Positions 287-60,674 of a DNA stretch of 64,000 bases are shown here, piece after piece. Below the pieces are notes generated by a model. It made no database searches. It was not told the DNA's origin and was given only the letters and a program-made list of their open reading frames with translations. This DNA is from Tolypothrix brevis GSE-NOS-MK-07-07A (GTDB taxonomy: Bacteria > Cyanobacteriota > Cyanobacteriia > Cyanobacteriales > Nostocaceae). Where the stretch lies: contig JAHHIJ010000008.1 of assembly GCA_019358985.1 (NCBI GenBank), positions 124,001 to 188,000 of the forward strand, in the 5' to 3' direction. Within the stretch, counting starts at the first letter, position 1, and the number at the start of each line of letters is the position of its first letter. A program made the translations under genes and the position numbers.

Positions 287-314
287 GTAGAGACGTTCCG
301 ACGGAACGTCTTTA
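287..314. repeat. GTAGAGACG palindrome, copy 1, overlapping a stop codon
   Basis: Inverted repeat GTAGAGACGTTCCG / CGGAACGTCTTTAC. Its right end supplies the TAA stop and part of the last valine codon of the Uma2 gene that ends at 312 on the minus strand. Same family as the copies near 962, 1171, 3518, 21714 and 23329. A 19-base stretch just upstream (ATATCATGTCCGTTTAATT, 243-261) recurs at 49737, so this may be a half-copy of the longer element seen there. Confidence 0.8.
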
Positions 315-884
315 CACTAATTCTAGTTGTAGTTCAAAACCAGGTAAAACCTCTTCACCCCTAAGTACCGCTGGGAGTTGAACTATTTCTAGAGGTTGAT
401 TTTGTCGATAAATCTCGACTTGCTGATCTTGAAAATTAATCAACCAACCTAAGCGTAAACCATTTTCGAGATACTCTTGCATTTTATCTTGTAGAGGTTG
501 GAGGCGATCGCTTTGGGAACGAAGTTCTATGAGAAAATCTGGTATAATAGGGGGGAATTTTTTGCGTTCATCTGAAGTCAGCGCTTCCCATCGTTCTAAT
601 TTTACCCAAGCAGCATCAGGCGATCGCTTTGCACCATTCCCAAGCCGAAAAATAGTAGAGGAACTGAAAACCTTTCCCAATCTCGTTTTACGATTCCAGA
701 TTTCCAAGTCTGTAATCATTCCTGCCTCTTGATTTCCGCTTTCTCCTCCGACTGGTGACACAATAATTAATTCTCCTTTTGCATTCAATTCCAGGTTCAA
801 GTCTCGGTTTGCGGTGCAAAGTTGATAAAATTGCTCATCTGTGAGGTGAACAATCGGCTCTAGATTTAGCACATATGTATTCAT
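312..884 (-). CDS. Uma2 family restriction-endonuclease-fold protein (DUF820)
   Basis: A 190-residue protein with the usual Uma2/DUF820 layout: an N-terminal helix with LTDEQFYQLC, then a strand with GELIIVSPVGGESG, a central S-P-D-A-A-W core (around residues 88-93), and PDFLIELRS...KMQEYLENG further on. In this family the PD...(D/E)xK-like acidic and lysine residues form a PD-(D/E)XK nuclease fold. Here the SPDAAW aspartate, the E of FLIEL and the K of DKMQEYLENG are the likely equivalents. These genes occur in tens of copies in Nostocales and their role is unknown. A second, different copy lies at 11685-12248. The stop codon lies in a palindromic repeat. Confidence 0.85.
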   Translation of the reverse strand: MNTYVLNLEPIVHLTDEQFYQLCTANRDLNLELNAKGELIIVSPVGGESGNQEAGMITDLEIWNRKTRLGKVFSSSTIFRLGNGAKRSPDAAWVKLERWEALTSDERKKFPPIIPDFLIELRSQSDRLQPLQDKMQEYLENGLRLGWLINFQDQQVEIYRQNQPLEIVQLPAVLRGEEVLPGFELQLELV

Positions 885-929
885 TAAACTACCTTTGCCT
901 ATAGCAGTAGTGAATTGCTTTGATTATTT

Positions 930-1041
930 GGCATTGCTGAATTGATGTATGAATCCGGATGTAGAGACGTTCCGCCGGAACGTCTCTACAAGGATTTTAG
1001 TATTATATAAAATTATTTTCATACCTCCATTCAGCAACGCC
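930..1041. mobile_element. MITE type A, copy 1 (112 bp, 8-bp target duplication)
   Basis: The ends are inverted repeats of about 25 bp: left GGCATTGCTGAATTGATGTATGAA, right the complement of GGCGTTGCTGAATGGAGGTATGAA. The element is bordered by a perfect 8-bp direct repeat GATTATTT (922-929 and 1042-1049). The interior holds a GTAGAGACGTTCCG palindrome. No coding capacity. The ends resemble GGC-TTG-TGAAT-type ends of some IS5/IS903- or IS6-like elements, but the parent transposase is not in the window, so that link is only a guess. A second copy is at 3388-3500. Confidence 0.8.
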
Positions 1042-1170
1042 GATTATTTATATATAGCAGTTCTCGTTTGAATCAAATATATCCTGACAGTTAATTTAAA
1101 GACGTTGCACAAGATCCGTCACTACAATCTGTATTGCATACAAGTGTAAACCGCTGTATAACAATCCTTG

Positions 1171-1319
1171 TAGAGACGTTCCGCCGGAACGTCTTTACAA
1201 GCGGAACGTCTTTACAAGCGGAACGTCTTTACAAGCGGAACGTCTTTACAAGCCGAACGTCTTTACAAGCGGAACGTCTTTACAAGCCGAACGTCTTTAC
1301 AAGCCGAACGTCTTTACAA
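1171..1319. repeat. Palindrome followed by seven 17-bp half-palindrome units
   Basis: A full GTAGAGACGTTCCGCCGGAACGTCTTTAC palindrome (1171-1199) is followed by seven direct copies of a 17-bp unit, GC(G/C)GAACGTCTTTACAA, starting at 1201, 1218, 1235, 1252, 1269, 1286 and 1303. The unit is exactly the right half of the palindrome. Only position 3 varies (G or C). A short open frame runs through the array only because 17-bp units cycle all three frames without a stop. Confidence 0.9.
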
Positions 1320-1327
1320 GATGTGTG

Positions 1328-1522
1328 AATACCCTTGCTGTGAATTGTTCGCGGCACGCCTTCACCCTCAGGCTGGAAGCCTGGGGCGTTGCGCGTACGA
1401 AGCCCGCCTACGCGGGCTATGAAATTCCAGTCCGCGTTCGCGCAGCGTGTCGTAGACAAGGCGGGCTTGGTTCGTTTAGCCACACCCTTCTAGGGTGATG
1501 GCGATACGTTGCAAAAGCTAAA
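1328..1522. repeat. Repeat-rich spacer without a gene
   Basis: Contains three small inverted repeats: CTCAGGCT/AGCCTGGG near 1368, GCCCGCC/GGCGGGC-type words (AAGCCCGCCTACGCGGGCT near 1399), and CACCCT-TCT-AGGGTG (1483-1497). The last lies just downstream of the flavodiiron stop codon on the minus strand and could end its transcript, but it lacks a T tract. The short ORFs here have no recognisable product. Confidence 0.5.
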
Positions 1523-3232
1523 TTAATAATGACTTCCCGATTTCCGATGATGCACAGCGGTTAGACCATCTTGATTTAACACTTTGCCGTTATCCACACT
1601 TGCATAAACCAACCAATGATCGCCGGCTTCCATACGGGTTTGCACGGAGCATTCCAGGTATGATAAAGCTTCTGAAAGGATGGGGCAACCGTTGCTGGAT
1701 TCTTCAGTTTCTATGCCGGCAAATCGGTCTTGTCCTGGGGTAAAAGATTTCATGAAGTGCTTTCGCAGTTCTTTGCCTTCAGCTAAAATGTTAACAACAA
1801 ATTGGTTGCCTGAGTGCGTCAGCGGTTCCATTGCCCGGTCTTTGGCTACGGCAATTGTTAAGCCAGGGGGATTAAAGCTTGCTTGAGATACCCAAGATGC
1901 TAACATTCCACTAGATACACCACCTTGCTTTGCTGTCACCACGCAGAGAGAACCGACAATTCGACCAACCGCTTGTTCAACGTTGCTGGCAGCTTGAGTG
2001 CGTGGCGCCCGAACTTTATTTACTCTTTTTAGCGCTTGGGCAAAGTCGGTTCCAGCTTCTTCGCAGGTTTGTAAGGTGACTTCGTTGGGTTTGAATTTGA
2101 CGCGGATGGTGTCAAAACCAAAGCGATAACCAGCGTCTTTTAATTTGCTTTCAATTAAATCAACTGCTTCCCCACTCCAACCATAGGAACCAAATACACC
2201 GGCGAGTTTGTTGTTAGTAGCGGTGGAAAGAACAATTCCTAAAGCCGTTTGTACGGGGGTTGGTGCGTGTCCGCCAAGGGTAGGGGAACCGATGACAAAG
2301 CCTGAAGCTTTTTCTACAGCGTTACGGATTTCTTCGGGGTCAGCAAATTCGCAGTTAATTGATTCTACACTGACACCGGCTTTGGTGATGCCGCGAGCGA
2401 TCGCAGATGCCAAAGTCGCTGTATTCCCATAGGCAGAAGCATAAATTAACGCAACTGTCGTATCCGCAGATGTTTGCAGCTGACTCCATTGACGATAAGC
2501 ATGTGTTAATTCAATTAAACCGTAACGCACCAAAGGTCCATGTCCGGTAGCATACAAACGAACGGGTAAGTCGGAAAGTTTATCCAGCGCTGTTTCAATT
2601 TGACGCGCATGAGGAGCCATGACACAATCAAAATAATAGCGCCTATCTTCGTTAATTGTCTCCCAGCCTTCATCAAAAACTTGATCGCCGGAGATATGCG
2701 CCGCAAATAGCTTATCTGAGTAAAGAATTTCCGTTTGCGGATCGTAGGTGCAAAGTTGATCTGGGTAGCGTGGGTTGGGGGTAGGAATAAATTTTAGGTG
2801 ATGACCTTTGCCTAAATCGATAGTTTCTTCACCACGTTTGACAAGAATTGGCAAATCTTGATTTTCCAGCACTGCACGCAGATTTATCGCTCCTGGATTA
2901 GAACAAACAAAAGTTATCTGCGGTGCAAGTTCTAATAAAGCTTTGATAGTTGCGGCTCGATTGGGATTAATGTGACCGAGAATCACATAATCAATATCTT
3001 TGATATTAAACCGTTGTTGCAAAGCTTGCAGATAAATTTCTGTAAAGGTTTCTCCCGGAGGATCGATTAAAGCGGTTTTATCACCTTGAATCAAATAAGA
3101 ATTCGCAGTTGTACCTTTAGCTAGGGCATATTCAATTTCAAATCTTAGCCTAGTCCAACTGCGCGATCGCATTACGGTTGTGTCTGTCCCAATGGGGAGA
3201 ACTTGAACGTCACGAGGTTTATTTGTTTCCAT
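1523..3232 (-). CDS. flv1B: Flavodiiron protein, Flv1 type (substituted metal ligands)
   Basis: A 569-residue three-domain protein: metallo-beta-lactamase-like domain (about 1-260), flavodoxin (about 265-405, with the FMN loop ASAYGNT) and C-terminal flavin reductase (about 425-569). The last domain is specific to oxygenic phototrophs. Flv proteins reduce O2 to water with electrons from the photosynthetic chain. The canonical H-x-E-x-D-H iron motif is replaced here by H87-I-N-P-N-R92, the next histidine by R155, and the CDAFG aspartate by a lysine (SDKLF). This is the known Flv1 pattern, and such a subunit works with Flv3. It lies 390 bp downstream of the Flv3-type gene. The B (heterocyst) assignment rests on the tandem flv3-flv1 order known from Anabaena and is inference. 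The spacer between the two genes has been invaded by a MITE and a repeat array. Confidence 0.85.
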   Translation of the reverse strand: METNKPRDVQVLPIGTDTTVMRSRSWTRLRFEIEYALAKGTTANSYLIQGDKTALIDPPGETFTEIYLQALQQRFNIKDIDYVILGHINPNRAATIKALLELAPQITFVCSNPGAINLRAVLENQDLPILVKRGEETIDLGKGHHLKFIPTPNPRYPDQLCTYDPQTEILYSDKLFAAHISGDQVFDEGWETINEDRRYYFDCVMAPHARQIETALDKLSDLPVRLYATGHGPLVRYGLIELTHAYRQWSQLQTSADTTVALIYASAYGNTATLASAIARGITKAGVSVESINCEFADPEEIRNAVEKASGFVIGSPTLGGHAPTPVQTALGIVLSTATNNKLAGVFGSYGWSGEAVDLIESKLKDAGYRFGFDTIRVKFKPNEVTLQTCEEAGTDFAQALKRVNKVRAPRTQAASNVEQAVGRIVGSLCVVTAKQGGVSSGMLASWVSQASFNPPGLTIAVAKDRAMEPLTHSGNQFVVNILAEGKELRKHFMKSFTPGQDRFAGIETEESSNGCPILSEALSYLECSVQTRMEAGDHWLVYASVDNGKVLNQDGLTAVHHRKSGSHY

Positions 3233-3387
3233 AGCTGACAGGAGTTATGAGGAGCAAAGGAGCTTTCGTTATGAGTGAGGAGTTAGGAGTCGAAAGTGGG
3301 GAGTGGGAAGTTACGAATTAAAAGTTAAAAGTGAGGAGTTATGAGGAGCGGAGTGAGGGACAATTTTTAATTTTTAATTCCTAACTC

Positions 3388-3500
3388 GGCGTTGCTGAAT
3401 TCAGGTATGAATCCGGATGTAGAGACGTAGCACTGCTACGTCTAATCAAGGGTTTTGACCAGAGCGCAGAATCATTTTCATACATCTAATCAGCAACGCC
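3388..3500. mobile_element. MITE type A, copy 2 (113 bp, 8-bp target duplication)
   Basis: Same element as 930-1041: left end GGCGTTGCTGAATTCAGGTATGAAT, right end the complement of GGCGTTGCTGATTAGATGTATGAA. It is flanked by the perfect 8-bp direct repeat CCTAACTC (3380-3387 and 3501-3508). The interior palindrome differs from copy 1: GTAGAGACGTAGCACTGCTACGTC instead of the TTCCG version. The flanking DNA is itself rich in CCTAACTC-like words, so this duplication is slightly weaker evidence than that of copy 1. Confidence 0.8.
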
Positions 3501-3517: not shown

Positions 3518-3610
3518 GTAGAGACGTTCCGGCGGAACGTCTCTACAAGTACAGACGTTCCGGCGGAACGTCTCTACAAGTACAGACGTTCCACCGGAAC
3601 GTCTCTACAA
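3518..3610. repeat. Three tandem TAGAGACGTTCC palindromes (31-bp period)
   Basis: Three head-to-tail copies (3518-3549, 3550-3580, 3581-3610) of a roughly 30-bp palindrome. Copies 2 and 3 begin TACAGACG instead of GTAGAGACG, and copy 3 has CCACCGG instead of CCGGCGG at the centre. The array ends 12 bases before the stop codon of the Flv3-type gene, so it lies in that gene's 3' untranslated region and could act as an RNA-stabilising or terminating structure. Confidence 0.85.
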
Positions 3611-5455: not shown

Positions 5456-6289
5456 GTGAAACAACAGTTGCATCAAGAAAATACAGAAAACCTTTGGCTA
5501 GCTTTGGAAATTGGCAATTCTCGCTTACATTGGGCATTATTTGCAGGTGAGAAACTTTGCCAAACTTGGGATAGTGACCATCTTTCAGTAGAAAACTTAG
5601 CACAAAAAGCAACTGATTGTGATTTACTGTCTATAATTTCGGGAGCATCCCCCCCTATCCTCCTCTCCTCCGTTGTTCCTAGTCAAACGAAAATTTGGCA
5701 AACTTATCCTCATGTTCGCATTATTACTTTAGAAGAAGTACCGATAAAGGGCATGTATCCCACATTAGGAATTGACCGTGCCTTGAGTTTATATGGTGCT
5801 GGAAGTACTTTAGGCTTTCCCATGTTAGTTATTGATGCGGGGACAACACTGACTTTTACAGGTGCTGATAGTAATAAAAATTTAGTCGGGGGGGCAATTT
5901 TACCGGGATTAGGTTTACAGCTTGCGAGTCTGAACCAAAAAACAGGACAATTACCACTTGTAGAGACGGGAAATTTCGCATCTCTACCGCAACGATTTGC
6001 TCTCAATACAGAAGAGGCAATGCAAAGCGGAGTTATTTACACTTTATTAGCGGGAATCAAAGATTTTGTTGAAGCTTGGTGGTGCGATTTTCCCCAAAGT
6101 AATGTTGCAATTAAAGGAGGCGATCGCACCTTAATGGTAAACTACATGAAATCAGAGTTTCCAGAAATTGCAGCGCCTTTGATTGTGGAACCGAATTTAA
6201 CATTTTGGGGAATGCGATCGTTATTTTTTTGTATAAACATTCCAGAGGAAGGTTTCTACGGCGTTGCTGATTTGAAATATGAATTTTAA
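5456..6289 (+). CDS. coaX: Type III pantothenate kinase
   Basis: A 277-residue protein starting at a GTG. CoaX phosphorylates pantothenate with ATP, the first step of coenzyme A synthesis, in the cytosol. The family motifs are present: [12 protein letters not shown] near residue 18 (phosphate-binding D/E-x-G-N-x-R/K), [11 protein letters not shown] near 104, [10 protein letters not shown] near 122, and [11 protein letters not shown] near 147. Two oddities: 5960-5987, which encodes roughly [10 protein letters not shown], is a 28-bp copy of the GTAGAGACG palindrome, and the last codons (GVADLKYEF, from 6260) match the left end of MITE type A. Both sites look like repeat DNA domesticated into the frame. 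Divergent from the flavodiiron genes; the intergenic gap is about 108 bp. Confidence 0.9.
5960..5987. repeat. GTAGAGACG palindrome inside coaX
   Basis: GTAGAGACGGGAAATTT / CGCATCTCTAC differs at only two positions from the perfect 28-bp palindrome at 60647-60674 (GTAGAGACGCGAAATTTCGC...). It is read in frame within coaX. Confidence 0.75.
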
Positions 6290-6322: not shown

Positions 6323-6359
6323 CTTTGTAGAGACGCGATACCCTTGCGTCTCTACAAAG
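6323..6359 (+). terminator. CTTTGTAGAGACGC hairpin after coaX
   Basis: Arms CTTTGTAGAGACGC (6323-6336) and the complementary GCGTCTCTACAAAG (6346-6359) enclose a loop of about 9 bases, and the sequence then continues TTTTTGG. A member of the palindrome family, placed 33 bases after the coaX stop, where it could serve as a Rho-independent terminator. Confidence 0.5.
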
Positions 6360-12331: not shown

Positions 12332-12358
12332 GTAGAGACGTAGCAGTGCTACGTCTTT
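12332..12358. repeat. GTAGAGACGTAGCAGTGCTACGTCTTT palindrome
   Basis: The TAGCA version of the family, sitting 40 bases beyond the 3' end of the tRNA-Ala gene on the minus strand. Confidence 0.75.
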
Positions 12359-12398
12359 GTTAATAAAAAAACAAAGAGCGCATTGGGTGTCACGTTCA

Positions 12399-12644: not shown

Positions 12645-12755
12645 CTAGTAGCCTGTCAATTATATTTTGATGGTTGTGTACAAATCCACAGCCGTATAGA
12701 GACGTAGCACAGAATAGTCTCTACAACCATCATTTTTATCTTGACAGACTACTAG
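12645..12755. mobile_element. MITE type B, copy 1 (111 bp, CTAGTAG ends)
   Basis: Left end CTAGTAGCCTGTCAATTATA, right end the complement of CTAGTAGTCTGTCAAGATAA, with ATGGTTGT on the inner side of both arms. The interior has TAGAGACGTAGCACAGAATAGTCTCTAC, a degenerate copy of the palindrome family. The outermost CTAG words would fit duplication of a TA target, as for IS630/Tc1-mariner-like elements, but this is inference. The right end provides the TAG stop codon of the M48 protease gene. A copy in the opposite orientation is at 20002-20114. Confidence 0.75.
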
Positions 12756-20001: not shown

Positions 20002-20114
20002 CTAGTAGTCTGTCAAGATAAAAATGATGGTTGTAGAGACGTAGCACAGAATAGTCTTGTGAGCGGGTTGTGGATTTGTACACAACCATCAAAATATAAT
20101 TGACAGACCACTAG
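20002..20114. mobile_element. MITE type B, copy 2 (113 bp)
   Basis: Same element as 12645-12755 in the opposite orientation: CTAGTAGTCTGTCAAGATAA at the left and the complement of CTAGTGGTCTGTCAATTATA at the right, with GTAGAGACGTAGCACAGAATAGTCT and GTGGATTTGTACACAACCATC inside. It has about ten extra bases (TGTGAGCGGG) in the middle. It sits directly beside the toxin-antitoxin cassette. Confidence 0.75.
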
Positions 20115-21713: not shown

Positions 21714-21815
21714 ATGTCGTAGAGACGTTCCGGCGGAACGTCTTTACATGTCGTAGAGACGTTCCGGCAAAACGTCTTTACATGTCGTAGAGACGTTCCG
21801 GCGGAACGTCTTTAC
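21714..21815. repeat. Three tandem ATGTCGTAGAGACGTTCC palindromes (34-bp period)
   Basis: Units at 21714, 21748 and 21782, each ending in AACGTCTTTAC. The middle unit has CCGGCAAAACG instead of CCGGCGGAACG, which breaks its symmetry. The array ends 22 bases before the dxr stop codon. Confidence 0.88.
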
Positions 21816-23190: not shown

Positions 23191-23384
23191 GAGGATGCAT
23201 AAAACAATCTCAAACATACCACCAGCTAAAGTTAATAGACACAGGAGTGAAAAAGATGTAGAGACGTAGCATTGCTACGTCTCTATAACGGTTGTGAGTA
23301 CAGCAGATGCGTTTTTATTGAATACACATAGAGACGTTCCGCCGGAACGTCTCTACAAGGACAGGGGTTTTATGCATGTACCTC
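23191..23384. repeat. Inverted-repeat element carrying two GTAGAGACG-type palindromes
   Basis: Left arm GAGGATGCATAAAAC (23191-23205), right arm GTTTTATGCAT-GTA-CCTC (23367-23384; three extra bases). Inside are GTAGAGACGTAGCATTGCTACGTCTCTATA (23258-23287) and TAGAGACGTTCCGCCGGAACGTCTCTA (23329-23355). No coding capacity. Possibly a compound MITE. Confidence 0.5.
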
Positions 23385-23487
23385 ATTTACCTGAAATATG
23401 CTGTAACGCATAATTAAACTCGGTCGATGTCTAATGCCTCAAGTTCAGGTATTTATCATCAAAGCTGGATGGAGAAACGAATTTTGA

Positions 23488-25978: not shown

Positions 25979-27268
25979 ATGACAAATTCATTTAAAGAAA
26001 ATATCACCAAATATACAAGCAAAAACAAATATCAAATAAAAAATATTTTGTTTGTCATAGCAATGTGGCTATCTAGCCGACTTTTGATAGCCGTTACAAT
26101 GTTGTTTATTGCTCCTTTATTTCCCGCACCACCTAATGGTATCGCTGCCACATTTGGCTGGGATGTTTTCACTGCATGGGATAGTGCTTGGTATCAGCAA
26201 ATTGTAACTAATGGATATCAACCTTCCGATAATGGAGCATTATATTCAACGGCATTTTTTCCGTTATTTCCCTTAATTATCCGAATATTTATGAATCTTG
26301 GCTTGCCTTTTGCAGTGGCAGGCACATTAATAAATAGTTTTGCATTTTTAGCTGCTTTAATAATTCTGTATTTTTGGGTAAACGAAAGTTATGGTAAAAG
26401 TGCAGCACGGTGGACAACTGCTGTTTTAGCATGGTGTCCTTATTCGCTTTACGGAACTGTAGTTTACACCGAAGGACTGTTTTTATTGTGCAGCATATCT
26501 GCTTTGCGAGCTTTCGATAAAAAGCAATATATCTCGACAGTTTTTTGGGGTGGATTAGCTACAGCAACACGAGTAACTGGAATAACACTCATACCTGCCT
26601 TTTTGTTTGTCTCCTGGAAAGAACGCAGAGGTTTAAAAGCCTACTTTGCTAGTTTAGCTGTGGGTAGCGGATTTGCTTTTTATAACCTGTATTGTCAAAT
26701 TAAATTTGGTGACGCTTTGGCATTCCTTCACGCACAAAAAGGATGGCGTTCTTCCGTGGGGTTTGACTGGCAAGGTTGGCGGAAAATGTTGATGGAAATC
26801 GTCGTTGGTCAAACTAACGCAAATGGCTCTATTCAAGAGCCTTGGCATTTATTGATATTTACAATTATTGTTGGTAGTTGTTATTTATTATGGCATTTTC
26901 GCAGCCAGCTTGGTTCTGTTAAGGTGCGCTATGGATTTTGTCTTTTTTGGTTTTTGTTGTGGTTAATTACCGGGGATTCTTTAATTAGAATTGCAATCAT
27001 TTTTGGTGGTCTGTATTTACTTTGGTTTTCTCGAAATAAAATTCCTTTGGTTGCTGTTTTATATGGTTTTTTCTCTTATGCGTTGATTCTGAATACTGGA
27101 CTTGCAGCTTCTGTTGAACGCTACGCTTATGGTATTGTGTCGCTGTCGTTTGCATTTGGATTATTGCTTGCTCGTTATCCGCGTTGGGGATATGCAATTA
27201 TGGGATTTTTTGCCATTATTTTAGCCACCTTTGGTATCCGATTTTCTCAAGAACTTTGGTTAGCTTAA
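25979..27268 (+). CDS. PIG-V-like mannosyltransferase family (GT-C) protein, paralog 1
   Basis: A 429-residue integral membrane protein with about 8-10 helices. The first external loop has FGWDVFTAWDSAWYQQIVTNGYQ, whose WDSAWY aspartate is the probable catalytic residue of the GT-C fold, and FFPLFPLIIR follows. WCPYSLYGTVVYTEGLFLL and RVTGITLIP are further family motifs. Such enzymes transfer mannose or another hexose from a polyprenyl-phosphate donor to an acceptor on the outer face of the membrane. Starts 26 bases after the transporter gene, as in an operon. About half of its residues appear identical to the gene at 28836-30080. Confidence 0.83.
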   Translation: MTNSFKENITKYTSKNKYQIKNILFVIAMWLSSRLLIAVTMLFIAPLFPAPPNGIAATFGWDVFTAWDSAWYQQIVTNGYQPSDNGALYSTAFFPLFPLIIRIFMNLGLPFAVAGTLINSFAFLAALIILYFWVNESYGKSAARWTTAVLAWCPYSLYGTVVYTEGLFLLCSISALRAFDKKQYISTVFWGGLATATRVTGITLIPAFLFVSWKERRGLKAYFASLAVGSGFAFYNLYCQIKFGDALAFLHAQKGWRSSVGFDWQGWRKMLMEIVVGQTNANGSIQEPWHLLIFTIIVGSCYLLWHFRSQLGSVKVRYGFCLFWFLLWLITGDSLIRIAIIFGGLYLLWFSRNKIPLVAVLYGFFSYALILNTGLAASVERYAYGIVSLSFAFGLLLARYPRWGYAIMGFFAIILATFGIRFSQELWLA

Positions 27269-27292
27269 GATAAGCACTCTTCGTGCTTACTA
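27269..27292. repeat. AAGCACT-CTTCGTGCTTACTACG hairpin repeat
   Basis: AAGCAC/GTGCTT stem directly after a stop codon, ending in TACTACG. Related to the repeats at 28732-28790 and 62068-62113, which share the GTAGTGAGC/GCTTACTAC theme. Confidence 0.55.
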
Positions 27293-27327
27293 CGAGAAAG
27301 GAATTATTCAGAATTGGTAGAGGTGAT

Positions 27328-28713
27328 ATGGTAAAAAAAATAATTGTATTTGGTACTGTCGGTTGGATGATTGGCATTAGTACCGTAATTTTATTTGCGT
27401 GCAGCAGCTTACGACACATTTTGTTTCAATCAAGCTCTTATGATTTAGGAATTTTTGATCAGGCAGTTTACTTAATTAGCCAAGGACAACCGGCTGTTTC
27501 TAGTTTCATGGGATATCACATTTTGGGTGATCATGCAGCTTTTATTTTCTATCCCTTGGCTTTATTGTACAAAATCTACCCTAGTGTTTATTGGTTATGC
27601 GCTGTGCAAGCAGCAGCTTTAGCCTTAGGTGCATTGCCTACGTGGTATTTAGCGCGTCAAGCTAATTTGACACCGCAGCAATCCATAGCAATGGCAGCTG
27701 TGTACTTGTTATATCCAGTGGTGTTTAATGTCAATTTGTTTGATTTTCATCCAGAAACCATCGCTCTCCCTATTTTATTAGCAGCCGTATGGTTTGCGCG
27801 GCAAGGAAAAACTGCATGGTTTTGTGTCAGCATTATCTTGATTTTAAGTTGTAAAGCAGTTTTATCCCTGACGGTAGCTGCAATGGGTATTTGGTTGATT
27901 TTGTTTGAAAAACGACGCTTGTGCGGTATTGTTGCTCTTTGCGTTGGTGTTGCCTGGTTTTTGATTAGTTCTCAAATGATTATTCCCTTTTTTAGTGGTA
28001 GGGAAGCAGCAGCAGTTGGACGTTTTAGCTATTTAGGTAATTCCGTTACAGAAATTGCTCAAAATCTGCTGTTAAAGCCAGGATTAGTATTAGGTAAAGT
28101 TTTATCATTAGATAATTTAATATATTTAGTTCTATTGCTAGCACCTGTAATTTGGGGGCTTTCTTTTCCAGGTATAACACCTTTAATTGGTGCAATTCCT
28201 TGTGTGGCAATTAATCTAATCGCTGACTACCAACCTCAAAAAGATTTGGTACATCAATACTCTTTACCAGCACTGCCATTTTTGTTGTTAGCTGTAATTT
28301 CTAGCCTTGCAGCAGGTAAGGGGTGGTTGCAAAAAAAACGAGCAATAATTTTGTGGTCTTTGGTGGTATTTTTGGCTTTGGCAAAGTTTGGCTATTTTTG
28401 GTCGAGATATTTGGAATCTCTGGATACTTGGCAAGCTAGACAAGAAGCGATCGCTCAAGTTCAAACTAAAGGAAGTGTTTACACAACAGATCCAATTTCC
28501 TCCCACTTGGCACATCGGCAATTAATTAAATTGACTGATGCAAATTCACCACAAACTGATTTAACAATCTTTGATTATATATTACTAGATGTCCGTCACC
28601 CAGGCTGGGCAAGTAATCCACAATTTGCTGCTAGTTTATTAAATCAACTCAAAACTAAACCAGAATTTAAGTTGAAATATCAGCGCGATGATGTTTATTT
28701 GTTTGCAAAATAA
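27328..28713 (+). CDS. DUF2079 membrane protein (GT-C-like)
   Basis: About 460 residues. I use the ATG at 27328 (MVKKIIVFGTVGW), with AGAGGTG just upstream, rather than the GTG at 27283, which lies in a repeat hairpin. Family signatures: SSYDLGIFDQAVYLI (about 40-54), FMGYHILGDHAAFIFYPLALLY, and NLFDFHPETIALPILL, with invariant D, H and E residues thought to act like GT-C active sites. Nine or ten membrane helices. The C-terminus is a soluble domain (ITDPISSHLAHRQLI-like, DYILLDVRHPGW). Function unknown; the setting implies another lipid-donor sugar transferase. Confidence 0.8.
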   Translation: MVKKIIVFGTVGWMIGISTVILFACSSLRHILFQSSSYDLGIFDQAVYLISQGQPAVSSFMGYHILGDHAAFIFYPLALLYKIYPSVYWLCAVQAAALALGALPTWYLARQANLTPQQSIAMAAVYLLYPVVFNVNLFDFHPETIALPILLAAVWFARQGKTAWFCVSIILILSCKAVLSLTVAAMGIWLILFEKRRLCGIVALCVGVAWFLISSQMIIPFFSGREAAAVGRFSYLGNSVTEIAQNLLLKPGLVLGKVLSLDNLIYLVLLLAPVIWGLSFPGITPLIGAIPCVAINLIADYQPQKDLVHQYSLPALPFLLLAVISSLAAGKGWLQKKRAIILWSLVVFLALAKFGYFWSRYLESLDTWQARQEAIAQVQTKGSVYTTDPISSHLAHRQLIKLTDANSPQTDLTIFDYILLDVRHPGWASNPQFAASLLNQLKTKPEFKLKYQRDDVYLFAK

Positions 28714-28731
28714 AGAATAATGTATCCATCG

Positions 28732-28790
28732 TAGTGAGCGATTTATCGCTCAAATAAAATATTTTAAGGGCTGAAGCCCTTGCTACCTAA
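28732..28790. repeat. GTAGTGAGCGATTTATCGCTC + AAGGGCTGAAGCCCTT repeat
   Basis: Two adjacent hairpins (GAGCGAT/ATCGCTC and AAGGGCT/AGCCCTT). Related to the repeat between tldD and pmbA (62068-62113). Confidence 0.55.
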
Positions 28791-28835
28791 GAGTTGATTT
28801 ATTATCTAGTTATTAATTGGGGATGAAATATTTTG

Positions 28836-30080
28836 ATGATAAATAATAAATTATTTTTTCCAGTTATTATGTGGCTATCTAGCCGCATATTTATCTGCAT
28901 AATCATGTTATTGATTGTGCCTTTACTTCCAGTTCCACCAGGAGGAGTTGCTGCTAAATTTGGGTGGGATGTTTTCTTTTCTTGGGATAGTAACTTTTAC
29001 GAAGCGATCGCCACTTTTGGATACAATTATTCAATTCCCGGAAAGCAGCTGCCATCGGTTGCTTTTTTTCCTTTGTTTCCTTTAGTTACTCACGCATTAA
29101 TGAGTGTTGGCTTACCTTTTAAAGTAGCAGCCACATTGATAAATAATTTCGCATTTTTAGGAGCGCTGATAGTATTATACGCTTGGATGAATGAGCGTCA
29201 TGACAAACAAAAAGCGCGTTGGGTAACAGCCGTACTAGCTTGGTGTCCTCTGTCTTTATTCGGCACTGTAATTTACTCTGAAGGACTGTATCTTTTGTTT
29301 AGTACAGCTACTTTAAAAGCTTTTGATAAACAACAATATGGCTGGACAGCGCTTTGGGGTGCCATCGCTACCGCAGCACGTCCTACGGGGATCGCGCTCA
29401 TACCTGCGCTTTTCCTTGTAAGTTTGTTTGAACGCAGAGGTGTAAAAGCTTACATTGCTAGTTTAGCTGCTGGTGGTGGTTTGTTTCTATGGAGCTTGTA
29501 TTGCCAAATTACAATGGGGGATGCTTTAGCATTTCTCCACGCTCAAAAAGCATGGCGTCCATCATTGGGTTTTGATTGGCTGCGTTGGTTAAAAATGATA
29601 ATGCAAATTGTTGTCGGCACAACTAATTGGAAGTATGGTTATATCAAAGATCCTTGGCATCCACTGATATTTGCGATTATTATGGGTAGCACTTATTTAC
29701 TGTGGTATTTCCGCAAAAAATTAGATGCTATTAAGGTAAATTATGGCTTTGCCTGCTTAGGGTTAGTCTTGTGGCTGTTAGCCGGCGATCCTTTGACTAA
29801 CGTTCTGATGATATTTGGTGGTATATATTTGTTATGGCGTTTACGTCGGGAACTTAGTTTAATTACTGTTGTCTATGGTTTTTGTGGCATCGGTATGTTA
29901 CTGGCATCGGGAGGCACAATTTCTTTAAATCGTTTGTCTTATGGTATTGTATCGTTGGCGATCGCATTCGGGGTGCTGCTTGCTCGTCATCCTTTTTGGG
30001 GACGTGCAGTTATGGGTTTCTTTGCCATTTTACTTGCTAGCTTCGCTGTCCGATTTGCTCAAGATCAGTGGGTAGCGTAG
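28836..30080 (+). CDS. PIG-V-like mannosyltransferase family (GT-C) protein, paralog 2
   Basis: About 414 residues, same family and membrane layout as the gene at 25979. Matching landmarks: FGWDVFFSWDSNFYEAIATFGYN (catalytic-loop aspartate), FFPLFPLVTHALMSVGLPFKVAATLINNFAFLGAL, WCPLSLFGTVIYSEGLYLLFSTATLKAFDKQQYG, and FLHAQKAWRPSLGFDWLRWLKM. The close similarity along the whole length indicates tandem duplication followed by divergence of the polar loops. ATG at 28836 chosen over the preceding TTG. It is separated from the DUF2079 gene by a repeat of about 120 bases and may have its own promoter. Confidence 0.83.
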   Translation: MINNKLFFPVIMWLSSRIFICIIMLLIVPLLPVPPGGVAAKFGWDVFFSWDSNFYEAIATFGYNYSIPGKQLPSVAFFPLFPLVTHALMSVGLPFKVAATLINNFAFLGALIVLYAWMNERHDKQKARWVTAVLAWCPLSLFGTVIYSEGLYLLFSTATLKAFDKQQYGWTALWGAIATAARPTGIALIPALFLVSLFERRGVKAYIASLAAGGGLFLWSLYCQITMGDALAFLHAQKAWRPSLGFDWLRWLKMIMQIVVGTTNWKYGYIKDPWHPLIFAIIMGSTYLLWYFRKKLDAIKVNYGFACLGLVLWLLAGDPLTNVLMIFGGIYLLWRLRRELSLITVVYGFCGIGMLLASGGTISLNRLSYGIVSLAIAFGVLLARHPFWGRAVMGFFAILLASFAVRFAQDQWVA

Positions 30081-40982: not shown

Positions 40983-40990
40983 TTATTTTT

Positions 40991-49715: not shown

Positions 49716-49889
49716 AATTGTTGCTAGTTGACTTTCATATCATGTCCGTTTAATTCACATGAATAAAAAAATCCGAAATCCTTGTAGAGACGTAGCAGTG
49801 CTACGTCTCTACATCAGTAGCAGTGCTACGTCTTGACATCATATGTAATAAACCTGTCATGATATCAATCGTCAACTAACAAACAACAA
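49716..49889. repeat. Long imperfect inverted repeat carrying GTAGAGACGTAGCA palindromes
   Basis: Outer arms AATTGTTGCTAGTTGAC and the complement of AATTGTTGTTTGTTAGTTGAC, inner arms ATATCATGTCCGTTTAATT (49737) and the complement of ATATCATGACAGGTTTATT (to 49865). In the centre are GTAGAGACGTAGCAGTGCTACGTCTCTAC (49784-49812) and a partial copy GTAGCAGTGCTACGTCTT (49818-49835). The left inner arm also occurs at 243-261. Confidence 0.6.
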
Positions 49890-53278: not shown

Positions 53279-55951
53279 TTATACTCCCAAAATTAGTTGA
53301 TTTCGGTGGATGTGCAGCAATTGAAATTCTACTCTTGCTACTTGTTCTAGCATAAACAGGATTTGTTCAGGACGCAATAGCGTACCATCATTCCGACAAC
53401 TACCTATGTAGCGTAGGAGACCAGTAGATTCTGTGGGTTGCGTTTTAGTTTCTAATAATTCTATATCGAATAGGCGATCGCGCAGATTTATTACATTAGT
53501 CTTGCCTGATTTAGTTTTTTGCTCGGACCAAATCTCATCTGTTGTTTTGATTATATCAATCCACTCTTGCCATTTTGCCGATGGCATCTCTTCAAATGTA
53601 ACCACGGTAATCAAATACTCCGCAGCCTCCAAAAGTTGGGTAGCAGCACTCTTCTTTAAATCCACTTCTTCCACATTATATATGGGGATGTCTGTGGGCA
53701 AAGCATCAGCTAACTGTTGGCGGAAAGTTTCTGCTTCAACTACTTGATTTAACTCAAAATCGACAATTTCACCACTGCTGCTAGCTCCCAATGCTAAGGC
53801 ATTTGCTAAAGAAATGCGTGGCATCGGATGAAAACCACCAGTAAAAGAAATTGGCAATCCCGCACGTCGCAAGGCTCTATCAAACAAACGAAGTAAATCC
53901 AAGTGACTTACTAAAGCCATATCACCCTGCTTGCCAAACCGAACGCGCAGCCGTTGTGCCTTAGTTGTGTTGGGAACAAACTCGCCAGCAAATTCCGGGA
54001 TTGGCTGTGGGGGTATTACTATATTATGTCCGAAATCGGTGCCGCAAACGCCACAATGAGAACAACCATCAAAAGAACAATCAGGAACAATTGCAGCATC
54101 TATTGCGCGTTGCAAATCTTCCTTCAGCCACTTTTTGTCAATTCCCGTGTCGATGTGGTCCCAAGGGAGGGGCATGTCGAGGGAGGGGGGAGTAGAGACG
54201 CGATTAATCGCGTCTGTACAAGAGTGTCCGAGGGGGGGAGTGCCCGAGTGGGAAGCAAATTCTTCCTTGTCTTCCAAGGAGTCCCCAAACAAATTCCATT
54301 CGCCGTTTTCGATTTGGCGATATTTCCACATTTTACCGGCATCAGCGATCGCAACTTCCCAAGCTTGAAAGGCTTGCTCTACATTGTCATACCAGGAATC
54401 CATTCCTGCACCTAATTCCCAAGCGCGACGGACTACTTTAGATAAAGTGCGATCGCCTCGTCCAATAAAGTCCTCCATTGCCGAAATTCGCACATCGGTG
54501 AAGTTCACCTTTACAGCTTTGATTCGGCGAAATTCTTGCCGTAATAAATTTTGCTTGCGCTTAAATTCGGCGGTAGAAACTGAATGCCATTGAAATGGCG
54601 TATGCGGCTTAGGGGTAAAGTTAGAAATTGTCAAGTTAAAATTTAGAGTTTTCCTTCCCTTTGCCCAACATTCTCGCTTTAGCCAGCTTACTGTTTCGGC
54701 TATGCCTATAACATCGGCATCGGTTTCACCCGGTAAGCCAATCATAAAGTATAGCTTGATTTTATCCCAACCTTGCTCACTCGCTGTTTTCACACCGCGC
54801 AGCAACTCTTCGTTAGTCAAACCTTTATTCACAATGTCCCGCATTCGCTGGGTTCCCGCTTCTGGGGCAAAGGTTAAACCACCTTTACGCGTTCCGCCGA
54901 GGATATTGGCGATATTTTCATCAAATCTATCTACCCGTTGGCTTGGTAGAGTCAAAGAAATATTCTCATCTTTTAAGCGATTTTTGATTTCCATCCCCAC
55001 TGCTGGCAGGGACAAATAATCCGAACAACTCAAGGATAAAAGAGAAAACTCATTATAGCCAGTTTCCCGCATTCCTTTGGTTATTGCTTCTACCACTTTG
55101 TCTGGTTCTACATCCCGTGCCGGTCGTGTAAGCATTCCTGGTTGACAAAAGCGACAACCGCGAGTACAGCCGCGCCGAATTTCAATTCTCAGGCGATCGT
55201 GTACCGTTTCCATATAAGGAACCAGCCCGGTAGAATATGCGGGTATGGGAGTTGCTACCCGTCGCAAAATTCGTTTTGGCACATCTAGGCGTAAAGGATG
55301 AACTGAGCCATCTTCTGCCATGTCGTAAAATTGGGGAACATATACACCTGGTATCTGTGCCAAGTCTAGCAATAACTCTTCTCGGCTTAAGCTAGATGCT
55401 TTACCTTCTGCCAATACCAAGTTAATTTCTGGTAATAGTTCCTCGCCATCGCCCAAGGCAATAAAATCGAAGAAATCGGCGTAAGGTTCCGGATTCGATG
55501 TTGCCGTTTGTCCCCCAGCGAAAATTAAAGGATAATTTCCCTTTAACCGTTCAAGCCATGTAAAGGGAATTCCAGCCAAATCCAACATTTCTAGGATATT
55601 GGTTGCACCCAGTTCATAGCTGAGGCTAAAACCGAGAATGTCGAAATCAGTTAGCGATCGCTTTGATTCTACTGCAAACAGCGGTGTATGCGTTGCTCGT
55701 AGTTTGACGGCAAGGTCTGGTGCTGGGAGGTAAGCGCGATCGCACAACGAGCGCGGCTGGGCATTCAAAATATTATAGAGGATGATATGCCCTAAATTTG
55801 ATGCACCGACTTCATACACTTCCGGATAAGTTAATACCCAACGTGTTGTCGCCGTATCCCAAGGTTTATGTACTGCACCCAGTTCGTTACCGAGATAACG
55901 AGCTGGCTTTAAAATATCCGATGTAATTAATTTTTCAACTGGAACAGCCAC
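53279..55951 (-). CDS. B12-binding radical SAM protein fused to a DUF2344 domain
   Basis: An 890-residue protein of the TIGR03960/TIGR03936 type. N-terminal cobalamin-binding-like region (about 1-200), radical SAM domain with the cluster motif C262-T-R-G-C266-R-F-C269-Q, SCSDYLSLP and LKRECWAKGRKTLNFNLTISNFTPKPHTPFQW, then DUF2344 (KQGDMALVSHLDLLRLFDRALRRAGLPISFTGGFHPMPRISLANAL) near 690-735. A cysteine cluster (CSFDGCSHCGVCGTDFGHN, about 633-651) may bind a second metal. Reaction unknown. Residues about 565-600 (FASHSGTPPLGHSCTDAINR...) are an insertion between domains, and its core is a copy of the GTAGAGACG palindrome. Confidence 0.9.
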   Translation of the reverse strand: MAVPVEKLITSDILKPARYLGNELGAVHKPWDTATTRWVLTYPEVYEVGASNLGHIILYNILNAQPRSLCDRAYLPAPDLAVKLRATHTPLFAVESKRSLTDFDILGFSLSYELGATNILEMLDLAGIPFTWLERLKGNYPLIFAGGQTATSNPEPYADFFDFIALGDGEELLPEINLVLAEGKASSLSREELLLDLAQIPGVYVPQFYDMAEDGSVHPLRLDVPKRILRRVATPIPAYSTGLVPYMETVHDRLRIEIRRGCTRGCRFCQPGMLTRPARDVEPDKVVEAITKGMRETGYNEFSLLSLSCSDYLSLPAVGMEIKNRLKDENISLTLPSQRVDRFDENIANILGGTRKGGLTFAPEAGTQRMRDIVNKGLTNEELLRGVKTASEQGWDKIKLYFMIGLPGETDADVIGIAETVSWLKRECWAKGRKTLNFNLTISNFTPKPHTPFQWHSVSTAEFKRKQNLLRQEFRRIKAVKVNFTDVRISAMEDFIGRGDRTLSKVVRRAWELGAGMDSWYDNVEQAFQAWEVAIADAGKMWKYRQIENGEWNLFGDSLEDKEEFASHSGTPPLGHSCTDAINRVSTPPSLDMPLPWDHIDTGIDKKWLKEDLQRAIDAAIVPDCSFDGCSHCGVCGTDFGHNIVIPPQPIPEFAGEFVPNTTKAQRLRVRFGKQGDMALVSHLDLLRLFDRALRRAGLPISFTGGFHPMPRISLANALALGASSSGEIVDFELNQVVEAETFRQQLADALPTDIPIYNVEEVDLKKSAATQLLEAAEYLITVVTFEEMPSAKWQEWIDIIKTTDEIWSEQKTKSGKTNVINLRDRLFDIELLETKTQPTESTGLLRYIGSCRNDGTLLRPEQILFMLEQVARVEFQLLHIHRNQLILGV
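54192..54219. repeat. GTAGAGACGCGATTAATCGCGTCTGTAC palindrome inside a coding region
   Basis: 28 bases, one mismatch between arms, flanked by GGGAGGGGGGA and AGAGTGTCCGAGGGGG. In frame in the B12 radical SAM gene, encoding about ten residues of a linker. Confidence 0.8.
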
Positions 55952-57939: not shown

Positions 57940-57999
57940 AATTTAAGTTACAAGGGTAGCAGCAACGATTTTATTGCTGCTTTCTTCATTGTGAACTAC

Positions 58000-58266
58000 C
58001 TACACTGACGCTTCGCGTACAGTGTAAGCTTCTGTAATCACGGGGGAGTGCCGCAACTTGGACTTTCGCCCTAGTTTTGGTCTTACCTCCCCTCCTACAG
58101 CAGAGACGGCTGAACCTTCCGCCTTTAGCATTCTGATACCTTCTGCTCTAATAATTATCGCTGCGTTTCCATCCCTATCATGATGAGTGCCACAGTGGGG
58201 GCAAGTCCACTCACGGACATCCAGTGGCATCTCCCTGACTTGATAGAAACAATTAGAACAAAGCAC
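58000..58266 (-). pseudogene. tnpB C-terminal remnant (zinc ribbon)
   Basis: About 88 codons. The zinc-ribbon LCSNCFYQV...REWTCPHCGTHHDRDGNAAIIIRAEG, with the terminal RuvC aspartate in DRDGNAA, identifies the end of an IS200/IS605 TnpB. The upstream three quarters are missing (upstream frame reads AVSPPLKTAV, unrelated). The likely right-end hairpin ACACTGACGC/GCGTACAGTGT is at 58002-58025 and contains the stop codon. Confidence 0.8.
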
Positions 58267-58303
58267 TGCCGTCTTCAGTGGGGGACTTACGGCGAATTAG
58301 TTA

Positions 58304-58457: not shown

Positions 58458-58662
58458 AAGAGCTTGAAAGTGTGCTATACTAGTAAGACGCTGCAAAAGT
58501 AGTGAATTATCAAAGCAGGCAAAGACTTGATGCAATTATCAAATCTAAGCAGCAAAAGTTTTTCATGACCATTTATTTGCTTTTGTATAAGATAGAATAG
58601 GTAAATAACTGTAAAGCGATCGCGCTTACACAGAATCTGTAGTAGATAAAGAGCAAATAGCC

Positions 58663-58944
58663 GTGTCAGTCGAAACCATTGAGAAGCGTTCAACATCCCG
58701 TAAACTTGCGCCTCAGTATCGTGTTTTGCTCCATAACGATGACTTCAACCCGATGGAGCATGTGGTGAAGGTGCTAATAACCACAGTGCCTAACCTTACT
58801 CAACCCCAGGCTGTTAGCATCATGATGGAAGCTCATACGAATGGGCTAGCTTTAGTTATTACTTGCGCTCAGGAACACGCTGAGTTTTATTGTGAAACCT
58901 TGAAAAATCACGGTTTAACCAGCACAATTGAACCTGACGAATAA
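58663..58944 (+). CDS. clpS: ATP-dependent Clp protease adaptor ClpS
   Basis: 93 residues, GTG start. Delivers N-degron proteins to ClpC/ClpP. Core YRVLLHNDDFNPMEHVVKVLITTVPNLTQPQAVSIMMEAHTNGLALVITCAQEHAEFYCETLKNHGL: the N-D-D residues and the following hydrophobic pocket (M-E-H-V) that hold the N-terminal residue are intact. Only 21 bases from the CPBP gene, so probably co-transcribed. Confidence 0.93.
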   Translation: MSVETIEKRSTSRKLAPQYRVLLHNDDFNPMEHVVKVLITTVPNLTQPQAVSIMMEAHTNGLALVITCAQEHAEFYCETLKNHGLTSTIEPDE

Positions 58945-58965
58945 CAATCAACAGGCAAAACGTTT

Positions 58966-59802
58966 TTGAAAATTAATTTTCTTCGTCTGTCTCAATACCC
59001 TGCCCCTGTTCGGCTGGGTATATTTATATTGGCATTGTTGTTGCTGTGGTTGCCAATAGCAGCACCAATTCGCTTATTAGTGCGTGATGACAACTTAGTT
59101 ACTATTTTGACAATGCCACTGCTGTATGTAGAGTTTATTTTGTTACTGCGGCTTTGGGGCAAAAAAGTTTACAAGCAAACTCAGATACTGAGACATTATG
59201 GTTTAGAAAGAACACCGCAAAATGCAATGGATTTGCTGCATGGTTTGACGATTGGACTAATTAATATTTTGATTTTATTTGGGGTAGAAGGATTGCTGGG
59301 TTGGCTGGTATGGCAAAAACCGAGTATTTTTTTACTGAGAGTTATTTTAGAAGGGTTGATTGTTGCCTTGGCTTATGGATTTGCCGAGGAATTATTATTT
59401 CGAGGATGGCTGTTTGATGAGTTGCAGCGCGATTACAATCTCAATGTGGTAGTTTGGGCAACTGCGATTATTTTTGCTGTCAGTCACTTTATTAAACCGT
59501 TGCCAGAAATTATTCGCACATCGCCGCAATTTTTTGGCTTATTGCTGCTGGGTTTATTTTTAGTGTGTGCAAAACGCTGGCGTAGAGGGCGTTTGGGCTT
59601 ATCGATCGGACTACACGCTGGTTTACTTTGGGGTTATTACATTATAAATGTTGGGCAATTAACTAAATATTCTGGTGCAGTTCCTGATTGGGTTACTGGT
59701 GTGAATCAAAATCCCTTAGCTGGGTTAATGGGATTGGTGTTGTTGAGTGTGTTGGCTTTGTGGATGGGGAGGAAATCGAGAGCGATCGCTCTGGTGAGAT
59801 AA
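58966..59802 (+). CDS. CPBP family intramembrane metalloprotease
   Basis: 278 residues, eight or so membrane helices, TTG start (no ATG/GTG close). Active-site motifs: EELLFRGWLFDELQ near 141 (E-E-x-x-x-R), FAVSHFI near 173, and a last histidine in LSIGLHAGLLWGYY near 215. Members cleave membrane substrates or isoprenylated proteins; in cyanobacteria roles include thylakoid function, though not tested here. Coupled to clpS. Confidence 0.88.
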   Translation: MKINFLRLSQYPAPVRLGIFILALLLLWLPIAAPIRLLVRDDNLVTILTMPLLYVEFILLLRLWGKKVYKQTQILRHYGLERTPQNAMDLLHGLTIGLINILILFGVEGLLGWLVWQKPSIFLLRVILEGLIVALAYGFAEELLFRGWLFDELQRDYNLNVVVWATAIIFAVSHFIKPLPEIIRTSPQFFGLLLLGLFLVCAKRWRRGRLGLSIGLHAGLLWGYYIINVGQLTKYSGAVPDWVTGVNQNPLAGLMGLVLLSVLALWMGRKSRAIALVR

Positions 59803-60187
59803 TCGTTGCCCCAAACCCTTGTAGAGACGTAGCAATGCTACGTCTTTTATAAGCCTATGTCTAATAAACACATATCCTTCTATACCTAAAGAGATATTCT
59901 GATTTGCATTAAATCTTATGTGCAGCCAAAGACTTTCAGCAAACAACCAACATGCCTATCACAAAGGCTTTTTACCACTTTTAATCTTCACTGATTGCCT
60001 AAGCAACTTACTCCCTTAAGCATAGCTCAAACAAGCAAGCTGGATACAATGCAAACTTACAATTCCTCCCATCGCATGAGGCGTTAAATTCGGGAATGGG
60101 TAAGAATGACAGTGTAGAAGTTAAGTAAGCGGCTGCAAGTGCCAAATACTTATTAAATAGCTTCTAAAAATTTGGGAGGAATTAACT
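59803..60187. other. Spacer with one GTAGAGACGTAGCA palindrome
   Basis: No gene. GTAGAGACGTAGCAATGCTACGTCTTT at 59821-59847, 19 bases after the CPBP stop. Ribosome-binding site GGGAGGAA before the next ATG. Confidence 0.6.
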
Positions 60188-60628
60188 ATGAGAATTAAAT
60201 CTTTAGCTGCGATCGCTTTTTTAAGCGCTATATCTCTAGGTGCTTCCGTTCCCGCTAAAGCTGCAAATCCTGCTGATGTGCAGCGTTTGCTACAAACTGG
60301 AGAATGTCTCAAGTGTGATTTAAGCGGTGCAAACCTGAAAGGTGCTCACTTGATTGGTGCAGATTTGCGGAATGCTAATTTGAAGGGTGCTAATTTAGAA
60401 AACGCTAATTTAGAAGGTGCTGATTTAACCGGCGCGAATTTACAATCTGCTAATTTGAAAGAAGCATTCGTCAATAGCACGACTTTAAATAATGCTAATC
60501 TGACAAATGCTAACTTAAGCAATGCTACCTTATATAGTGCCGAATTAGAAGGCGCTACTTTAATTGGTGCTAATTTAAATGGGGCTGATGTGTTTAATAG
60601 TAATATCGGCGTAGGTGGCGGTGAATAA
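60188..60628 (+). CDS. Exported pentapeptide-repeat protein
   Basis: 146 residues with a signal peptide (RIKSLAAIAFLSAISLGASVPAKA, cut after AKA at about residue 25). The mature start ANPADVQRLLQTGECLKCDLSGANL has the two cysteines (C-L-K-C) common in lumenal members. Then about 20 A(N/D)Lxx repeats (GANLKGAHLIGADLRNANLKGANLENANLEGADLTGANL and so on), a classic right-handed beta helix. Lumenal or periplasmic; function unknown. Confidence 0.9.
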   Translation: MRIKSLAAIAFLSAISLGASVPAKAANPADVQRLLQTGECLKCDLSGANLKGAHLIGADLRNANLKGANLENANLEGADLTGANLQSANLKEAFVNSTTLNNANLTNANLSNATLYSAELEGATLIGANLNGADVFNSNIGVGGGE

Positions 60629-60646
60629 TGTTAATTTGGGTGATTT

Positions 60647-60674
60647 GTAGAGACGCGAAATTTCGCGTCTCTAC
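60647..60674. repeat. Perfect 28-bp palindrome GTAGAGACGCGAAATTT...
   Basis: GTAGAGACGCGAAA and its exact complement TTTCGCGTCTCTAC between convergent genes, so it could end transcription in both directions. Nearly identical to the copy inside coaX (5960-5987). Confidence 0.88.

Follow-up and report, generated by a model that had tools for sequence, protein, structure and literature searches.

The 64,000-nucleotide stretch of Tolypothrix brevis DNA analyzed here (the window) contains many copies of a short palindrome whose center exists in several versions. The palindrome is a double-foot repetitive extragenic palindrome (REP) of the form GTAGAGACG-core-CGTCTCTAC, in which each strand has a GTAG foot. 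The arms are common to all versions, and the 10-12-base core marks the lineage of REP-associated tyrosine transposase (RAYT) to which a REP belongs. At orthologous RAYT loci the core changes in place. Taken together, the data make it likely that these RAYT-linked double-foot REPs are partly passengers of mini-elements and are also replaced in place by other versions. In what follows, G000 is the 6.52-Mb source genome and G001-G004 are four congeners.

Profile searches with NF047646 and PF01797, together with an alignment search, identified three related RAYT genes in G000, on contigs C14, C44, and C57. The preliminary description of the window had called for a RAYT gene flanked by the same core, and each of the three indeed carries, and is flanked by, its own core. 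In every case the inner REP is an in-frame insertion that separates the HUH half of the gene from its Y half: a CGAAATTTCG REP with four more copies of its left half in tandem (C44), a TTCC REP with an 18-base tandem array (C14), and a CGAT..ATCG REP with one foot only (C57). GTAG/CTAC REPs of the gene's own core version flank all three, and TAGC REPs also adjoin the C44 RAYT. These features agree with the available account of TnpA_REP subclass 2.4, which is common in Cyanobacteria and has HxH, WQ, and YIxNNP motifs, a variable loop joining the HUH half to the Y half, and, in that loop, in-frame REPs that have a GTAG end and a CTAC end (Corneloup 2018, PMC6006769). The first motif reads NHVH, NHMH (one residue off the published NH[IFV]H), and NHIH in the three genes, and all have WQ and YIINNP. 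Motifs, in-frame loop REPs, and double-foot REPs are thus common to both, and the suspected REP-like nature of the palindrome finds its match in the published REPs of this RAYT subclass. Eight of the nine best named relatives of these RAYTs are cyanobacterial. A fourth RAYT, of a different kind, lies at C39 in a 3.4-kb locus free of such palindromes, and the other NF047646 matches are two weak pieces at C38 and genes at C15 and C53 that score far higher as IS200-like PF01797.

The match between gene and core was also assessed in 48 RAYT open reading frames (ORFs) found by motif pattern in 129 loci (L016-L144); several loci contain one and the same gene. This set includes one probable false ORF (L143, minus strand), and loci with non-matching ORFs were dropped. 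Arms occur both inside and outside the gene in 28 of the 48, and an inner core, compared on four letters, recurs outside its own gene in 24 of these 28 loci, whereas pairings across loci match in 87 of 756 cases; the closely related RAYTs L019/L035 and L036/L037 are not independent. None of 5000 permutations reached 24 (maximum 11). L039 (G024), an interrupted RAYT missed by the pattern, has its own core, ACCCG..CGGGT, on GTAGAGACG arms within and around the match, and no GTAGAGACG arm was found at L042 and L044, RAYT loci that the pattern also missed. This core-version match of REPs to each RAYT is new; in-frame inner REPs and double-foot REPs had already been published. GTAG hairpins also lie inside RAYTs of records titled Ardenticatena (L071), Chlorobiota (L077), Bacteroidales (L078), Anaerolineaceae (L085), Kuenenia (L089), Patescibacteria (L108), Chloroflexi (L127), and Tenebribacter (L132), with the GTAGAGACG arm itself in L071, L077, L085, L089, L108, and L132.

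The exchange of cores is seen most directly at the C44 RAYT, whose orthologues in G004 and in G023, a genome of another genus, are found at the same location, following the same gene (OmpA-like by eye). The REP upstream of the gene, at a corresponding position between similar flanks, has the core CGAAATTTCG in G000 and G004 and TAGCATTGCTA in G023. Inside the gene, the REP core of G000 and G004 is again CGAAATTTCG, and that of G023 is TTGCAGTGCAA. The downstream REP, just past the stop codon, has a TAGC core in G000, with its foot worn to ATAA, as well as in G023, and a CGAAATTTCG core with an intact foot in G004; G023 aligns poorly past this REP. At the C14 RAYT, TTCC in G000 stands against TGACC hybrids in G004, in the gene itself as well as in a portion of the arrays beside it. 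At these loci, then, the core changes in place, in support of the earlier suggestion that it moves or is exchanged independently of the ends. Since the swapped cores are unrelated and of different length, stepwise point mutation is not a ready explanation.

The C44 and C14 loci correspond to the 'orthoswitch' described for Pseudomonas and Stenotrophomonas, in which orthologous RAYTs are flanked by different REP classes and orphan classes remain (Nunvar 2013, PMC3686654). In the available text of that study, the switch is inferred as mutation of the flanking REPs, and the molecular mechanism is only speculative. Unlike that case, a whole unrelated core is replaced in place here (11 to 10 bases), and the in-gene copy differs too.

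The palindrome is abundant in the window and beyond. The arm GTAGAGACG occurs in 25 exact copies in the window, against 0.29 expected, and 0 of 100 shuffles reached 25. Allowing up to four arm mismatches, there are 22 two-armed sites with TTCCNNNGGAA, TAGCANTGCTA, and CG... cores, in line with the roughly 20 copies in three central versions first reported; one of the 22, at 58100, is probably a chance match. The G000 genome holds 1139 two-armed palindromes (at most two mismatches) and no match to a reversed control pattern, the four congeners hold 61, 206, 297 (in a genome 54% complete), and 664, and 39 of 59 relatives have at least one. Core and family counts were made in a sample of 1.664 Mb (1.668 including 4 kb of N), about one quarter of the genome. 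Its 316 two-armed REPs have TTCC (140), TAGC (100), CGAT (28), CGAA (15), TTCG (6), TTGC (3), and other (24) cores, and the core halves are fully paired in 228 and show at least three differences in 42. Only 23 lie wholly inside ORFs of at least 120 aa, though such ORFs cover 74% of the sequence. As a short hairpin with a GTAG foot, in high copy and mostly outside genes, the palindrome belongs to the GTAG super-family of REPs. Tandem copies of a 106-base unit, each containing a single TTCC REP, lie at G000:C15:30829-31281 (L177), and a 33-base REP array at G000:C44:41586-41812 changes core from TTCGGTTCGTAA to TTCCGCCGGAA with the spacer unchanged.

Several hybrid cores occur in more than one of the 316 REPs, namely TGACCGTGGAA (7), CAAGGGAATCGC (5), ATTCTGTGCTA (5), and TTACGAACCGAA (5). 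Such hybrids look like half-exchanged products, as would arise if ordinary homologous gene conversion between REPs swapped the cores with no role for a RAYT; the arms common to all versions would make a dedicated enzyme unnecessary. However, only 9-10 bases are common on each side, and the downstream C44 REP, with a GTAG foot in G004 and ATAA in G000, looks as if the whole REP had been replaced, albeit in one case. Gene conversion is thus a possible, if doubtful, source of the exchanges.

Mixed cores also appear inside mini-elements. After 11 of the 316 REPs were dropped for unusable flanks, 161 of the remaining 305 fell into 19 families with a common two-sided context. Seven of these look like mini-elements bounded by terminal inverted repeats (TIRs), with the ends TAGACATCTCC (F0), TATCATGTCCG (F1, type D), TACAGCAGATTGCG (F2), CAATACCGTTCAGTTAAG (F3), TATAGCGGTTCTC (F8), GGCRTTGCTGAAT (F10, type A), and CTAGTAGTCTGTC (F13, type B). 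Exact and one-mismatch arms were masked in the flank comparison, and a flank pairing without masking of REP arrays was dropped because the arrays matched each other. The clustering was anchored at REP edges (shift of at most 6), which by itself partly imposes a single REP position on each family. Searches with the flanks only, free of that anchor, agree, with a REP, a worn REP, or, in two copies, another hairpin at the inspected sites. Over all two-sided sites, degenerate REPs included, the 79 F0 sites have TAGC (57, and 5 variant), TTCC (10), TTCC/GGTCA (2), CGAA (1), and unclassified (4) cores; F0 is heterogeneous through loose chaining. The 25 F1 sites have TTCC (22) and TAGC (3), the 27 F2 sites TAGC (12, and 2 variant), TTCC (11), and TTCC/GGTCA (2), and the 10 F3 sites TAGC (4), CGAA (3), and unclassified (3). 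Mixed cores at one position in F0-F3 thus uphold the earlier statement that the core is not tied to the ends.

Could REPs have jumped repeatedly into a hot spot, such as the hairpin tip, of empty mini-elements? REPs do lie near the middle of the elements, and outer inverted repeats (score of at least 12) surround 45 of 207 REPs, compared with 71 of 619 re-paired flanks, a count that partly reflects tandem arrays. The REP spot is also taken by an unrelated hairpin in one F8 copy (C44:223000) and by a different GTAG hairpin in one F13 copy (C44:11060). Yet none of the 141 two-sided copies of F0-F3 is empty (fewer than 15 bases between the flanks), which counts against the insertion into a preferred spot proposed at the outset. 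In-place exchange therefore fits better than insertion into empty elements, and repeated independent insertion is improbable.

A core integral to each element, with mixed cores reflecting old subfamilies only, is likewise unlikely, and the preliminary description had named one fixed core per end type as its mark. That mark holds in part: a single version prevails in F0 (TAGC-type, 62 of 79) and in F1 (TTCC, 22 of 25), and F2 and F3 are mixed. In part of F0, TTCC and TAGC copies have different bases immediately to the left of the REP, and elements insert with the REP aboard, as an integral core would have it. Against this stand the orthologous loci that differ in core with position and surroundings corresponding. 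Furthermore, the F2 copies at C52:6482, C15:11843, and C28:79512, which have the same 30-base left interior and nearly the same right one (0.88-0.93), hold three cores (TAGC-variant, TTCC, and TTCC/GGTCA). Tandem F0 copies at C44:32541-32727 have the cores TTCC, TAGC, and TTCC; since their left neighbors differ too, they may be separate subfamilies. Trees of the flanks, which are weak (about 120 short columns) and omit the sites whose core could not be classified (4 of 79 in F0 and 3 of 10 in F3), require at least 10, 3, 6, and 1 core changes in F0-F3, where the lowest possible numbers are 3, 1, 2, and 1.

Comparison with the congeners indicates how the elements move. Orthologous places for 258 G000 REP regions were found in G004 (11), G001 (18), G002 (5), and G003 (3), and 15 of the 18 in G001 have no recognizable REP. 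The F2 insertion at 23299 of the window has TA on both sides in G000 and a single TA in G004. A REP-bearing F3 element of G004 (L237:10477) is missing from G000, G001, and G002, and G000, the sole genome compared, also lacks a second one at L259:16887. With TIRs and empty sites in relatives, these elements fit the description of miniature inverted-repeat transposable elements, the empty sites being those of F2, F0-like, F3, and F10 elements only. Since elements with REPs are present or absent as a whole, they carry REPs along, and the core is often a passenger. In a search for clean insertions of a bare REP, the differences were mostly whole elements, array length, or messy regions. Gains of a REP alone do occur; the nearest to clean are C44:194085 (18 bases more than in G001), in an open frame of 660 codons, and C50:71559 (63 more, with an extra half repeat), in one of 575. 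No autonomous element with the ends of a host element was recognized in the 1.66 Mb, with ORFs judged by eye.

Exact-core REPs were counted over 14 genomes. A TTCC-RAYT was found in three genomes (in G002 the gene is interrupted by a stop), and these have 651, 304, and 161 TTCC-core REPs; four of the eleven others have 27, 184, 45, and 10, and seven have none. REPs with CGAAATTTCG (CGAAA) number 55 and 175 in the two genomes with that RAYT and 2-15 in four others, with none in seven. TAGC REPs are present in 13 of the 14 genomes, and TTGC REPs number 3 in G000 and up to 32 in other genomes. G049 has 109 TAGC REPs, and a RAYT of that core was not found there.

Several observations weigh against the reading of RAYT-linked REPs that ride in mini-elements and are replaced in place. 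No TAGC-carrying RAYT was found in G000 by the alignment search, despite 659 exact TAGC copies. Similarly, G010 has 114 exact CGAAATTTCG REPs and G023 has 45 TTCC REPs, and a RAYT of the respective core was not found in either. The three RAYTs score 54.2, 64.5, and 49.5 bits with NF047646, all under the curated NCBIfam cut-off of 80; the long loop breaks up the match, and the profile is a general RAYT model rather than a definition of subclass 2.4. Orthologous places are few (11 of 258 in G004 and 18 of 258 in G001), which limits the view of replacement beyond the RAYT loci. Shuffled labels give 12.6, 2.9, 10.4, and 2.6 core changes on the flank trees of F0-F3, and the core partly tracks the flanks in F0 (10 vs. 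12.6), F2 (6 vs. 10.4), and F3 (1 vs. 2.6), so that some of the apparent exchange may be old subfamily structure. The core therefore tracks the flanks only partly in F0 and F2, not visibly in F1, and perhaps fully in F3 (7 copies). Finally, the core-swapping step itself is inferred and not observed.

The REPs and elements of the window are listed in Table 1. The type A ends GGCRTTGCTGAAT stand on both sides of two elements (930/1041 and 3388/3500), as do the type B ends CTAGTAGYCTGTC (12645/12755 and 20002/20114) and, for one element, the type D ends ATATCATGTCC (49737/49866). Three of the four end types initially proposed are thereby borne out, and the two type A copies do differ as claimed, the core being TTCCG in one and TAGCA in the other at an identical position. 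The fourth end type (type C, GAGG-ATGCATAAAAC at 23191) was rejected: it also occurs in G004 and, slightly altered, in G002, and because both have it without the element at 23299, it is ordinary flank. The palindromes at 23258 and 23328 sit instead in two nested elements, 23232-23436 and 23299-23405. At the site of 241-315, G004 seemingly has F1 in the opposite orientation with the core TAAGCTAGCTA (by eye). The REP of ORF 5456-6289 has a worn form in the G003 and G001 orthologues, and none is recognizable in G002.

Table 1. REPs and REP-bearing elements of the window, with the state of the site or copy in comparison.
Position	Strand	Feature	Comparison
241..315	+	Truncated F1 element, ATATCATGTCCG end, TTCC-core REP 287-315	
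930..1041	+	Type A element (F10, GGCATTGCTGAAT ends), TTCC-core REP 961-989	Element absent here in G001, G004
1051..1160	+	F8 element (TATAGCRGTTCTC ends), degenerate TTGC-core REP 1096-1125	
1170..1320	+	TTCC-core REP 1170-1198, then 17-bp half-REP tandem array	
3388..3500	+	Type A element, TAGC-core REP 3419-3447, right foot altered to CTAATC	Ends as at 930, core different
3518..3608	+	Three TTCC-core REPs in array	Region absent in G003, G001
5960..5987	+	Degenerate CGAA-type REP inside ORF 5456-6289	
6327..6355	+	REP, core CGATACCCTTG	
12332..12360	+	TAGC-core REP, right foot degenerate	
12645..12755	+	Type B element (F13, CTAGTAG ends), TAGC-variant REP 12696-12724	
20002..20114	+	Type B element, single-foot TAGC-variant REP from 20033	
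21719..21815	+	TTCC-core REP units, 34 bp, three in tandem	One unit in G003
23232..23436	+	F0-like element (AATAGACA..TGTCTAAT), TAGC-core REP 23258-23286	G002 absent, G004 present
23299..23405	+	F2 element (TACAGCAG..GCTGTA), TTCC-core REP 23328-23356, nested in F0-like element	Absent in G004
49737..49866	+	Type D / F1 element, TAGC-core REP 49784-49812	22/25 sampled F1 sites are TTCC
54192..54219	+	REP, core CGATTAATCG	
59821..59849	+	TAGC-core REP, right foot degenerate	
60647..60674	+	REP, core CGAAATTTCG, the version inside RAYT gene G000:C44	

Two other repeats of the window stand apart from the REPs. Two diverged direct repeats (71-73% alike) lie 2.8 kb apart at 26063-29360 and are apparently tandem paralogous genes (25979-27268 and 28833-30080). 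HIP1 (GCGATCGC), common in cyanobacterial genomes (PMC4390886), occurs in 65 copies against 0.43 expected; together with the RAYT relatives, it points to a cyanobacterial host.

In the seven mini-element families, TAGC REPs are overrepresented (64 of 99, vs. 45 of 134 TTCC REPs; Fisher p 3e-6, with copies not independent). Well-studied RAYTs cut single-stranded REP hairpins beside the GTAG foot. In the mechanism proposed here, RAYT/TnpA_REP subclass 2.4 enzymes would mobilize the REPs, many of which ride at one position in unrelated TIR-bounded mini-elements that, judging from single insertions, move as units. A REP is also replaced in place with its surroundings kept, as the orthologous RAYT locus shows and as copies of the same element with different cores suggest. 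The most likely route would be foot-to-foot replacement, in which a RAYT or a template switch at the replication fork would use the feet and arms of the resident hairpin as landing sites for another REP. The same replacement would have made the mixed cores inside mini-elements. Once a RAYT lineage changed its core, REPs of the former version (here probably TAGC) would lack their enzyme and would persist mostly in mini-elements. The further proposal that resident REPs are landing pads, where an active RAYT replaces older hairpins foot-to-foot both at its own gene and in mini-transposons, is put forward tentatively, as a possibility rather than an expectation.

Parts of this picture are already in print, namely the orthoswitch and the presence of REPs within RAYT genes and within palindromes. 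The SDR (small dispersed repeats) of Nostoc punctiforme, reportedly described by Elhai in 2008, are said to be 21-27 nt long and often embedded in minitransposons. GTAG-15 REP dimers of Anabaena variabilis lie regularly inside longer palindromes, and REP-free palindromes were not found (Di Nocera 2013, PMC3733652), in agreement with the elements seen here. Mixed REP versions within one family are seen here and not in what is available of that description, and the accessible account of subclass 2.4 (PMC6006769) likewise does not describe paralogue-matched core versions or REPs as mini-transposon passengers. Among the matches listed from PMC titles and the beginnings of abstracts, a search scope with most subscription literature outside it, no REP-core exchange inside mini-transposons was found. 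The addition made here is the wholesale replacement of the core in place, which presumably also occurs inside mini-transposons.

This bears on how REP classes turn over, since the switch is visible here base for base at orthologous positions. That the cores are unrelated and unequal in length argues against stepwise mutation, and replacement becomes directly testable. Two mobile layers also act together here, with TIR-bounded mini-transposons housing a system of single-strand hairpins. If resident REPs do serve as landing pads, an active transposase would rewrite the REP population in place with no sites added, and mini-transposons would keep abandoned REP versions alive as passengers.

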